NCBI RefSeq assembly: GCF_003867015.1
Contig: NZ_CP032548.1
Location: forward strand, 3,105,001 to 3,169,000
Direction of reading: 5' to 3'
DNA length: 64,000 nucleotides
From: Tenacibaculum singaporense
GTDB taxonomy: Bacteria; Bacteroidota; Bacteroidia; Flavobacteriales; Flavobacteriaceae
The notes under the pieces were generated by a model. That model was not told the origin of the DNA, did no database searches, and saw only the letters and a program-made list of their open reading frames with translations. The first letter of the stretch is position 1. The number at the start of each line of letters is the position of its first letter. Below are positions 30,213 through 54,634 of this stretch, in pieces. The position numbers and the translations under genes were made by a program.

Positions 30213-30605
30213 GGGGACGACTGGTTTTGACAGCAAGATTAGTGAAAATGTAAGCATACCGAGGAGTGAAATGACAACTCGTTAAACTTATTTCAAACAT
30301 TTAAACGGCGAAGATAACTACGCTTTAGCTGCTTAATCTGAATTAATAGTAAGATAGAGCCTCGGCACACAAGGTGCGCAAGCTAAATGTCCACGAAAAG
30401 CCTTGGTTTACGGCGTTTCACTTTTGGGCATCGTAAAAGTAAACATAGAGAACTTAGAACTTCGATAGGTTTTCGAAACTAAAGAAGATAAGTTAAGATT
30501 GGACAGTTTTTGGTCAGGTCTTAATCGAAAATTAAACAAAAACTAAGTATGTAGAAAGCCTTTGAGCTACTTGTTTGGACCCGAGTTCGATTCTCGGCGT
30601 CTCCA
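30213..30605 (+). ncRNA. ssrA: Transfer-messenger RNA (tmRNA), 3' end regenerated by an inserted element
   Basis: tmRNA rescues stalled ribosomes and tags the nascent protein for proteolysis. The 5' end GGGGACGACTGG pairs with the 3' CGTCTCC to form the acceptor stem. The T-arm GGACCCGAGTTCGATTCTCGG precedes it, and the discriminator A is 30605. CCA is not encoded. The tag frame begins at GGC 30307 and reads GEDNYALAA then TAA (30334-30336), giving (A)GEDNYALAA, close to other flavobacterial tags. The last 12 bases coincide with the left copy of the 13-bp repeat bounding the inserted element, so the functional 3' end is carried by the element. Confidence 0.95.
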
Positions 30606-30606
30606 C
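30594..30606 (+). repeat. attL core of the ssrA element
   Basis: TCGGCGTCTCCAC, identical to 54584-54596. It begins in the 3' strand of the tmRNA T-arm and ends one base past the discriminator. Confidence 0.88.
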
Positions 30607-30610
30607 TATT

Positions 30611-30645
30611 AACCCTTACAAACCCAGTGTTTGTAAGGGTTTTTA
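30611..30645 (+). terminator. tmRNA terminator at the left end of the element
   Basis: AACCCTTACAAAC (30611-30623) pairs with GTTTGTAAGGGTT (30629-30641) around CCAGT, followed by a T-run. It lies 4 bases after the repeat core, exactly where a diverged twin lies after the right repeat at 54601. Confidence 0.9.
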
Positions 30646-36899: not shown

Positions 36900-36993
36900 C
36901 ATTTAAAATATCTGTAGTATCTTGCAAGAGATTTACGGATGTAAAAAACACATTAATTTATAAAGCGTTTAGCTTTTGATTTGGTTTTAGAAA

Positions 36994-37084
36994 CTCGCCA
37001 GGTTATTAATTCCTCCAATATCAAAGTTAAGACGCCCACGTTCTGCGTGGGCTGTTCTTATTTGGAGGAAAGGTTTCTGGCGAG
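36994..37084. other. Three-tier nested inverted repeat, candidate structured RNA or replication/centromere site
   Basis: The outer arms CTCGCCAG (36994-37001) and CTGGCGAG (37077-37084) enclose TCCTCCAA (37011-37018) and TTGGAGGA (37062-37069). Inside these lie TAAGA (37028-37032) with TCTTA (37056-37060), and the apical stem GCCCACG (37034-37040) with CGTGGGC (37046-37052) around TTCTG. All arms are perfect and centred on one point, giving a 91-base rod-like hairpin. It sits between the partition genes and a CxxC protein gene, with no convincing gene over it. Candidates are a regulatory RNA, a single-strand origin, a parS-like site or an oriT. Confidence 0.7.
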
Positions 37085-37137
37085 ACCTCTAAGACCGATA
37101 AGTTTCAGTTCCACGCTTTTTTTATTCATTTTATATC

Positions 37138-38127
37138 ATGGAAAATCAAAACAAACAAATCGCCAACATTCAATTACACTTATCAGAAAACTGTTCTGAC
37201 TTAGAAAAAGAAATTCTTCAACAATATTGGAAACTTAACGAAACTGAGTTTGTAAATGCTCCAAAAGCAATTAAAAGAAAGTATACTATTTCTCAATCCG
37301 AATTAACTAAAACAACAGCTACTTACAGTACTTTAACTTTTTATCTATATTGTGATCATTGCCATTCATTTGAAAAACATGAAGCAAAAAGTCAATCTAG
37401 TTTTAATCAAACTATAAGAGAATTCCATAGTCGCTATTATCAGTCTTTTAAATGCAATCATTGTAAGGAAGTTCAAAAACAACAATTTCATTTAGAACAA
37501 GAAAGAAAGCGCAACGAATTAATAAAGAAGTTAGATAAAGCTATTGAGAATAAAAACTGGAAAAACCTATCAAATTTTGAAAAGGGTGTTTTAAAGAATT
37601 GCTTAGAAATGAATTTTGACCCCCTTAAAAATCATTATGGGAAAATTTTAGGATCAACAAACTTCAAACAACTAATTAAAGCTTTATATAACATTGAGAA
37701 CCAAGAATTAATTATACTCGAAAGAGATAGAGGGGATTATATAATTAATTATCAGTACTTAAACAAACTAAAAGACTTCAAAAATGAAATTACTACTCAT
37801 AAAAACAACTCCGAATCTAAAGCTAGTTTTAACTCTGAAACCAACGAATTAAAGCTTAAGCTTACTATTAATAAAGAAAAATTTCATCCTGACAGTCCGT
37901 TATATGCAGGAACAATAACCTTTAAAAAACAAATTGTTATTAATCCTGGTATTGAATATGTTTTTGCGCAATGGGAAAGAGCAAATGACAACTTATATTT
38001 CACGTTGGTTCCAATCTCTGAATTTGAAAAATTCCCAGAACAAAAGCCAATTTCAAATGTCCCTAAAATTTTAAGACAAGGAATTCAAGAATTTTTAAAA
38101 AATTTAGGGAGTAATTTAGACTTCTAA
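37138..38127 (+). CDS. Element protein with paired CxxC motifs, unknown function
   Basis: This 329-residue protein follows the nested inverted repeat. A zinc-ribbon-like pair of CxxC motifs is visible at about residues 79-82 (YCDHCHSFEKH) and 107-110 (FKCNHCKEVQKQQ). A basic helical stretch (EQERKRNELIKKLDKAI) follows, then a mixed alpha/beta C-terminal half. This suggests nucleic-acid binding. I recognise no named family. Its own terminator follows at 38136, so it may form a unit with the structured region upstream. Confidence 0.6.
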   Translation: MENQNKQIANIQLHLSENCSDLEKEILQQYWKLNETEFVNAPKAIKRKYTISQSELTKTTATYSTLTFYLYCDHCHSFEKHEAKSQSSFNQTIREFHSRYYQSFKCNHCKEVQKQQFHLEQERKRNELIKKLDKAIENKNWKNLSNFEKGVLKNCLEMNFDPLKNHYGKILGSTNFKQLIKALYNIENQELIILERDRGDYIINYQYLNKLKDFKNEITTHKNNSESKASFNSETNELKLKLTINKEKFHPDSPLYAGTITFKKQIVINPGIEYVFAQWERANDNLYFTLVPISEFEKFPEQKPISNVPKILRQGIQEFLKNLGSNLDF

Positions 38128-38135
38128 AAACATCT

Positions 38136-38168
38136 AGCTCTTCTTATCTTCAAAAGAAGAGCTTTTTT
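38136..38168 (+). terminator. Terminator after the CxxC protein gene
   Basis: AGCTCTTCTT (38136-38145) pairs with AAGAAGAGCT (38154-38163), 8-base loop, followed by TTTTT. It separates the plasmid-like half of the element from the defence cargo. Confidence 0.85.
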
Positions 38169-38464
38169 ATTCTATATTTATATAAAAATAGAATTATATT
38201 TTTATATTTATGCCAGTTAACTTGCTATGTTTAACTTCTTTTATTAACAAAAAATTGCTAGACTCTAAAAACTTATATTAAATCAAGTATTGATGAAGTA
38301 GTAGTATTGTTCATTTTATTTTTTATAAGAATATACTAAGCAAAGAATAACTAAAAAGGATAAGTCAAGATATAAACTTCTCTTATCCTGAAACATAAAC
38401 TATATAAACAAACTATTTGTTTATATATAACACGTTGACGGTAATTAAAACAAACACCTAGTTA
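38169..38464. other. AT-rich intergenic boundary between mobility and defence modules
   Basis: This stretch of nearly 300 bases has no credible gene. It holds weak AT inverted repeats near 38171-38206 and must contain the promoter of the nuclease/ATPase pair, but no clear TAnnTTTG element is seen close to 38465. Confidence 0.5.
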
Positions 38465-53154: not shown

Positions 53155-53178
53155 TAATGTATATTTTATTATACATTA
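53155..53178. terminator. AT-rich hairpin at the recombinase stop
   Basis: TAATGTATA (53155-53163) and TATACATTA (53170-53178) are perfect inverted arms around TTTTAT. It overlaps the last codons of the recombinase and sits in the convergent gap, a position suiting a two-way terminator. Confidence 0.5.
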
Positions 53179-54422
53179 TCAGTTGTAAAGTTTTCAAAAA
53201 CAGATTTAACAGCATCAATTTTAGCGTTGTTATCAACTTGATGATACATGTTAAAAGTCTTCAAATCTTTGTGACCACTAATGCTCATAATCGTTTTATC
53301 AGCAATACCTTTATTTCGCATAATGGTTATAAAAGTTCTTCTAGCAGTATGCGTAGAAATACGCTTATAGAATGGTTTAATAAAGATTTTCTGTTCTACT
53401 CCTTTGGTTCTTGTATATTCAACCTCATTAGTAAATCCTGCTTCCTTTAAAATATCTTTGATATAATCATTCTGTTTTTGATTAGATATTAAAGGCAACT
53501 CATAATTATACTTTTCTAATATTGATCGTGAAATAGATACTAAAGGAATTTCACGAGTCGGTTTAGAGCTATCCTTCTCTTCCTTTAATATCACACAACC
53601 ATTATTATTAATTGTTCTTTTATTTACTCTTTTTAATTCCCCATAGCGCATTCCTGTTAAACACTGAAAAATAAAAACATCTTTAATTTTATTTAGTCTT
53701 TCATCTTCACAAGTAAAATTATAGAGTGCTTTAATATCCTCAAAAGACAAAGCTTCTTCTCTAGTTAAAACTCTTTTAGGTTTCTTAAAATCAACAAACT
53801 TATTATTGTAGGTATGTTCTTTTTTCAAAGCCCAGAACATAAATGTTTTAAATAGCCCTAAGTTTCTATTAAATGTGTTGGTATAGTGATCTTTATACTC
53901 ATAACAAAAATCAATAAACTCGGTATAGAAGGTATTATTTATTTTACTAAATGTTAGTTTGTACTTCTTAACTTTTTCAAATTCTTGTAATAAGTTCTTA
54001 ATATTTTTATATCGCTTTATTGTCGAATGTTTCCATTCTTTTCTTTTAATTTTCTCCTCCGTAAATTTGTCATAAACTTCAAAGAACGAAGTTTGACTTA
54101 ATGTTAAATTATTAAAAGTTTTATCTAGATGCTCTTTTAATAATTGACTTGTAAATTCTGTTTTACTCATTTCGCAACGAGAATGCATTTCCTCAAAAGC
54201 ATCTGTATATTCATTTATTCTTTTTGTTATTCCTTTTTGGTCTTTAGATATATTTTTTCCTTTATTTTTTGGTTTCTTATTTTCGAAATCCCAATGATCA
54301 GGAAGTATCGATTTTCTAATTGAATATTTGAATTGCTTTTTCTCATTTTTAAAGTAACATGAAAAAACAATTAATGTTTCTTTTACATCTTTTGGCTTTC
54401 TTAAACAAAATGTATGTTTCAT
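53169..54422 (-). CDS. int: Tyrosine recombinase (integrase) of the ssrA element
   Basis: This 417-residue site-specific recombinase has an N-terminal arm-binding domain (about 1-105, typical of Bacteroidota phage-integrase SAM-like proteins), a core-binding domain (about 110-205) and a catalytic domain. Catalytic residues are Arg259 (LTGMRYGEL), His358 and Arg361 (STHTARRTF), His384 (SGHKD) and Tyr393 (FNMYHQVD). All lie in the order and spacing of the family, so it looks active. It is transcribed inward from attR, and its promoter region carries two of the four GNGTTGATAAT repeats, so it may be autoregulated. It should integrate and, with a factor such as the HTH protein at 31783, excise the element at ssrA. 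Confidence 0.93.
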   Translation of the reverse strand: MKHTFCLRKPKDVKETLIVFSCYFKNEKKQFKYSIRKSILPDHWDFENKKPKNKGKNISKDQKGITKRINEYTDAFEEMHSRCEMSKTEFTSQLLKEHLDKTFNNLTLSQTSFFEVYDKFTEEKIKRKEWKHSTIKRYKNIKNLLQEFEKVKKYKLTFSKINNTFYTEFIDFCYEYKDHYTNTFNRNLGLFKTFMFWALKKEHTYNNKFVDFKKPKRVLTREEALSFEDIKALYNFTCEDERLNKIKDVFIFQCLTGMRYGELKRVNKRTINNNGCVILKEEKDSSKPTREIPLVSISRSILEKYNYELPLISNQKQNDYIKDILKEAGFTNEVEYTRTKGVEQKIFIKPFYKRISTHTARRTFITIMRNKGIADKTIMSISGHKDLKTFNMYHQVDNNAKIDAVKSVFENFTTDNV

Positions 54423-54583: not shown

Positions 54584-54596
54584 TCGGCGTCTCCAC
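54584..54596 (+). repeat. attR core of the ssrA element
   Basis: TCGGCGTCTCCAC, identical to the tmRNA 3' end at 30594-30606. No tRNA-like structure precedes it, so this is the displaced end of the original ssrA target. Confidence 0.88.
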
Positions 54597-54600
54597 AAAA

Positions 54601-54634
54601 AACCCTTATAAACTCAATGTTTATAAGGGTTTTT
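54601..54634 (+). terminator. Displaced original ssrA terminator
   Basis: AACCCTTATAAAC (54601-54613) pairs with GTTTATAAGGGTT (54619-54631) around TCAAT, followed by a T-run. It matches the left-end terminator except at four bases, two of which compensate each other in the stem. It has lost its tmRNA gene through the insertion. Confidence 0.88.

Follow-up and report, generated by a model that had tools for sequence, protein, structure and literature searches.

The + strand of a 64,000-nucleotide stretch of Tenacibaculum singaporense DNA (the window; contig NZ_CP032548.1, positions 3,105,001 to 3,169,000) carries at 36963-37122 an element of 160 nt, which is the cis-acting 5' leader RNA of the gene behind it. 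This is a conserved structured element of the + strand with two mutually exclusive folds, both of them conserved, and it lies in sense, with a promoter box before it and a start codon after it. From its sequence features we predict that the leader is probably a conditional transcription terminator, or attenuator, of the following gene. The phylum Bacteroidota has few known cis-acting RNAs. A regulatory RNA that spans the phylum, covaries strongly, is absent from Rfam and precedes genes as different as those of TonB receptors, extracytoplasmic function sigma factors, response regulators, secreted proteins and mobile cargo would amount to a general layer of control there.

Structure and conservation of the element

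An earlier note on this DNA had described a nested inverted repeat at 36994-37084, and all four of its arm pairs are present: CTCGCCAG (36994-37001) with CTGGCGAG (37077-37084) outermost, followed by TCCTCCAA with TTGGAGGA, TAAGA with TCTTA and, innermost, GCCCACG with CGTGGGC. The inverted repeat is real and far beyond chance. Folded as RNA, the + strand from 36980 to 37100 reaches -55.9 kcal/mol, as opposed to -27.6 +/- 3.4 for shuffled sequences (z -8.26; 0 of 200 as low), and the minus strand folds more weakly in absolute terms (-51.5). These 91 bases are only the core of the element, which extends on both sides through an outer helix (GGTTTTAG with CTAAGACC) and the end sequences AAGCGT and ACGCTT, after which comes a T-tract.

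Relatives were found in three ways. Blastn against 299 genomes of the family gave four good homologues (L002-L005), of which one is another copy from the T. singaporense genome, and in these the outer helices differ in sequence with the pairing kept. A scan with a DNA pattern returned 60 stretches, nearly all from Bacteroidota; the GCGTGGGCTGTTC and CAGTNCCACGC parts are constant in these matches (L012-L071) by design of the pattern, which is not so in the blastn or model matches. One pattern match from Methylobacillus (L022) was discarded, being GC-rich, coding-like sequence without the other parts of the element. Finally, a covariance model, R1, was built from 16 sequences, and its alignment has double-sided changes at 22 of 39 pairs; its E-values are rough. 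With R1 the element was found in 60 of 392 genomes drawn from Bacteroidota; of 100 relatives of one positive genome, 45 have it. There are four copies in the T. singaporense genome and up to 8 per genome elsewhere, the latter in a genome of 1.7 Mb.

The sequence can form either a long rod, in which the two halves pair with each other (helices P0 to P3, with P4 as the apical hairpin), or two separate hairpins, A in the 5' half and B in the 3' half. When RNAalifold was applied to MAFFT alignments of the separate halves, the outer stem of hairpin B was all that came out, and hairpin A was missed completely; misalignment of the stems by gaps is the probable cause. An alignment-free partner test was used instead, in which the pairing energy of each sequence's own arms is compared with that of arms swapped among 45 diverse sequences. 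The parts of the element are as follows, with coupling z from this test:

36963 to 37122, + strand: whole element, leader RNA core, 160 nt (R1 match of 165 bits, E 9e-34; homology boundaries in relatives)
36965 to 37035, + strand: hairpin A, the alternative fold of the 5' half (mean fold z -2.1 in 135 sequences; lower-stem coupling z -14.2)
36981 to 36991, + strand: 5' arm of P1, partner 37088-37098 (coupling z -22.4)
36994 to 37002, + strand: 5' arm of P2, also the loop of hairpin A, partner 37076-37084 (coupling z -17.6)
37010 to 37018, + strand: 5' arm of P3, partner 37062-37070 (coupling z -16.2)
37028 to 37060, + strand: P4, the apical hairpin of the rod, which occupies GCGTGGG at 37045-37051, candidate antiterminator (apical stem coupling z -5.9)
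37045 to 37116, + strand: hairpin B, the alternative fold of the 3' half, with a terminator-like GCGTGG/CCACGC stem (mean fold z -4.5; lower-stem coupling z -13.1, outer stem z -6.2)
37117 to 37123, + strand: T-tract directly 3' of hairpin B

For the rod as a whole the coupling reaches z -25.6, and control combinations of arms that are not expected to pair gave z -0.7 and -0.5, so the signal is not produced by relatedness. Moreover, the hairpins do not simply follow from the rod, since they couple more strongly than the same bases do within it: the segment between P0 and P1 is hardly coupled in the rod (z -2.3) and clearly so within hairpin A (z -8.9), and the inner stem of hairpin B gives z -10.4 as against z -5.3 for the same bases in the rod extension of P4. 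Since both use GCGUGGG, P4 and the outer stem of hairpin B exclude each other, and both are coupled. P0 (AAGCGU/ACGCUU) shows no covariation (z 0); as it is nearly invariant, its pairing is putative.

In the 135 sequences the mean fold z is -6.2 for the whole element, and 98.5% of the 3' halves lie below -2. In 43 of 45 sequences the + strand forms a more stable fold than the complementary strand does. This identifies the selected strand, but the same polarity would arise from G-T pairs if the element acted as single-stranded DNA. Folding of the growing transcript, done for the window sequence, yields hairpin A, then P4 and then the rod, and the two states lie within 3 kcal/mol of each other in 23 of the 135 sequences.

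The earlier note had suggested that the repeat may be a non-coding RNA and had named covariation as the check. It was right in this, as the arms change with compensation in relatives rather than mutating without it. The likeness of the middle tier to Shine-Dalgarno and anti-Shine-Dalgarno sequences, also pointed out there, proved accidental: in relatives this helix reads, for example, TGCACAC/GTGTGCA, TTCGCCA/TGGCGAA or ACACAAC/GTTGTGT.

Two structural variants may be mentioned here. Four loci (L148, L149, L150 and L075) have long forms of 193-221 nt, in which the loop of P4 contains a large additional hairpin. Three Pedobacter loci (L014, L042 and L055) have a second small hairpin directly behind the element, with compensating arms and a GGGACT/GGAACT loop.

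Position between promoter and gene

With open reading frames taken mechanically, the next gene lies on the same strand as the element in 129 of the 135 sequences (129:6), and the upstream genes are split 68:64. TAnnTTTG, the -7 promoter consensus of Bacteroidota (PMC7366714), occurs at most 100 nt upstream on the sense strand in 97 of the 135 and on the other strand in 13, at about -30 or at -50 to -66. At the opposite end, the GC-rich stem of hairpin B runs straight into a U-tract in 120, counted as five or more T among the next 8 nt. The sense orientation, the promoter box and the U-tract together mark the element as a cis-acting 5' leader RNA. The distance from the -7 box to the element is only about 15-55 nt, and inspection of the upstream sequences by eye, with no systematic scan for open reading frames, revealed no conserved one. 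In the window the arrangement is:

36918 to 36925, + strand: imperfect -7 box TATCTTGC, read from the sequence and one T short of TAnnTTTG
37138 to 38127, + strand: gene of a CxxC protein of 329 aa, exchanged in a relative (L023) and predicted to be controlled here
38136 to 38163, + strand: intrinsic terminator after this cargo gene

Only 15 nt separate the element from the start codon of the CxxC gene, which leaves no space for another promoter. The statement in the earlier note that no gene explains the repeat holds for coding capacity, but the element does belong to the following gene, as its 5' leader.

A promoter box, a compact fold and a terminator-like 3' end are also typical of small RNA genes, and the element might be a trans-acting small RNA with its own promoter and terminator, the following gene being a bystander. 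This is quite improbable, because the next gene is in sense 129:6 and often only 10-60 nt away, which leaves no room for another promoter. Furthermore, one genome can contain up to 8 diverged copies, and the loops are free to change provided that they match each other.

A predicted transcription attenuator

The sense position from promoter to start codon was found, as were a terminator stem with a U-tract and an antiterminator exclusive with it, both conserved; these features argue for attenuation. RNA polymerase would first make the 5' half, which would fold as hairpin A. If the 3' half then folded on itself, hairpin B (GCGUGGG...CCACGC) with its U-tract would stop transcription before the gene. 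Alternatively, P4 would hold GCGUGGG, and P3, P2 and P1 would zip the halves into the long rod, so that hairpin B would be blocked and the gene read. Which fold wins would depend on what accelerates, delays or stabilises one of them; this may be a protein, a ligand, polymerase pausing or temperature. Such a switch would take no input from the gene itself, so it could precede any gene.

The likeness to known transcription attenuators, such as trp-type leaders and the expression platforms of riboswitches, lies in the 5' leader with exclusive hairpins, one of them with a GC stem and U-tract, and the gene directly behind. Unlike them, the element showed no leader peptide by eye, no aptamer-like conserved core and no common metabolic theme, and the genes behind it belong to about 72 unrelated families. 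In addition, its halves are inverted copies with complementary loops, and rod and twin hairpins can exchange over their full length. This two-state design, with inverted hairpin copies that pair with themselves or with each other, is directly testable and could serve as a switch.

Several points must be set against attenuation. The two hairpins are on average 10.5 kcal/mol less stable than the rod, which means that termination would depend on kinetic trapping or on a factor. No ligand or protein was found, nor, by eye, a leader peptide; the -7 box of the window itself is imperfect, and the U-tract is weak (TTCTGC) in some Bacteroidales copies. It could be instead that the leader acts after transcription, binding a protein or RNase or controlling translation or stability of the mRNA, and that hairpin B is no terminator. 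A role of this kind shares the evidence of leader position and structures; in Bacteroidota the start sites come shortly after the structure, and the long rod would suit a factor that binds double strands; a U-tract placed directly after a GC stem in 120 of 135 sequences would then be without obvious purpose. We consider this second role unlikely, and attenuation remains our preferred reading.

Genes behind the element and their exchange

The 119 proteins encoded behind the element fall into 72 clusters. They include SusC/RagA TonB receptors (14), extracytoplasmic function (ECF) sigma factors (4) and response regulators (3), many lipoproteins and secreted proteins, a BspA repeat protein, a Tae4 amidase and a PD-(D/E)XK transposase. 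This number of unrelated clusters argues against a metabolite riboswitch for one pathway, and a riboswitch was rejected also because most positions in loops and helices are free to vary as long as they are compensated and there is no conserved ligand core. The CxxC protein of the window had no Pfam, NCBIfam or PADLOC match.

Since the element of the window stands behind parA and a small CopG-like gene, an origin of replication, copy-control element or centromere of a mobile island comes to mind, and the earlier note had proposed a copy-control element, single-strand origin or centromere. This is extremely unlikely, and we abandon the proposal: the same element precedes chromosomal genes, among them TonB receptors, sigma factors and lipoproteins, at loci and in genomes that have no replicon or partition genes nearby.

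Locus pairs with common upstream DNA cease to be alike at the 3' end of the element, in most cases between -3 and +12 nt, and pairs with common downstream DNA do so at the promoter box, about 30 or 50-70 nt upstream of the element. In distant pairs such limits just reflect which part is constrained; in close pairs they show gene exchange. The window and the Tenacibaculum locus L023 share 917 nt upstream at 90% identity and have different genes, the cargo being exchanged right after the U-tract; similarity resumes at +1016 and +694, respectively. L012 and L069 have only the element in common (96.6% identity, limits -3 to +3). Exchange of genes behind a shared leader leads to the idea that promoter box and bistable leader form a portable, gene-agnostic module, spread horizontally in Bacteroidota, whose cargo is exchanged precisely behind the U-tract and comes under a common signal. 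We offer this only tentatively, as a somewhat doubtful possibility; if true, it would explain how mobile genes come under control on arrival. A further pair of loci, L175 and L183 (genomes G748 and G736), has the same pyrH-like upstream gene and nearly the same leader with different genes behind.

These limits of similarity could also be those of an attC-like recombination site for gene cassettes, acting as single-stranded DNA, with the covariation reflecting folding of DNA; the polarity due to G-T pairs would be expected of folded + strand DNA no less than of RNA. Integron attC sites and REPINs are indeed similar in part, the former being long imperfect bulged palindromes and the latter two inverted hairpins. 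The element differs from both in its sense orientation to the next gene, its fixed promoter box and U-tract, its low copy number and the lack of a second site behind the cargo or elsewhere in the island. The cargo returns to the backbone inside a terminator, not at a site. An array with a site at each cassette end together with an integrase, as in integrons, was not found; arrays occur only in L024 and L047, and no integrase is tied to the element. We therefore give little credence to a recombination site. In L024 (434-591 and 2354-2514) and L047 (1-79 and 905-1063) the small array-like arrangement consists of two copies that point the same way and have one or more genes in between.

As for upstream genes, in about half of the loci where this neighbour is divergent (19 of 44) it is a small XRE/Cro-type helix-turn-helix regulator (HTH_3 or related), about 120 nt away (L079-L093, L110-L115, L122-L137, L147, L160 and similar). 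Among themselves the regulators are not closely related, and they often stand opposite a SusC gene behind the leader.

Comparison with known elements

No Rfam 15 family, 6S, tmRNA and HEARO included, matched at the gathering cut-off over the element in the window and 20 related loci, and at E 10 nothing relevant appeared over it. Blastn against plasmid and phage collections and the pattern scan of viral contigs gave no match, so the element is not a common phage or sequenced-plasmid element. Literature searches found no description of it; an earlier unnamed listing is possible. Flavo-1 (RF01705), which has been reported from Flavobacterium psychrophilum, in 5' transcribed regions (PMC9723704), is likewise a structured Bacteroidota RNA of unknown role with several copies per genome. 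It differs in length and model; identity was rejected, as the Rfam model does not match the element and the four true Flavo-1 copies of the genome all lie elsewhere.

Palindromic or terminator-like candidate RNAs of Bacteroidetes have been listed from human microbiomes (HMP_4078, HMP2_4205, HMP2_1065 and HMP2_1881), one of them near D5/integrase genes and the expressed HMP2_1881 near radical SAM genes (PMC8040213). They were compared with the element by description only, and identity with part of the family is possible. Near-identical copies of the element in rumen Bacteroidales (L012 and L021) precede a radical SAM gene that resembles a His-Xaa-Ser maturase, as named by sequence inspection; these copies and HMP2_1881 may be the same RNA.

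The two-hairpin shape also recalls retron, CRISPR/omega and bridge RNAs, which were rejected because there is no reverse transcriptase, TnpB or IS110 among the inspected neighbours. A miniature inverted-repeat transposable element, suggested by the ends AAGCG...CGCTT, was rejected on account of the 129:6 orientation bias and the deep covariation.

The island that carries the element

The element of the window lies on a mobilizable defence island at tmRNA:

30595 to 54634, + strand: mobilizable island of about 24 kb, with a 51-bp direct repeat at both ends
53169 to 54422: integrase gene of the island

The direct repeat corresponds to the 3' end of tmRNA (30594-30644 and 54584-54634, 86%). Besides the integrase, the island encodes a primase, a NikA-like protein, a relaxase and ParA. 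Its defence genes comprise a type I restriction system, the PADLOC candidate pair PDC-M22, a Schlafen-like gene and AbiV. Behind the cargo gene is a non-coding stretch of 300 nt with palindromes (38138-38437), 83% conserved in L023, which could be an origin, oriT or partition site of the island.
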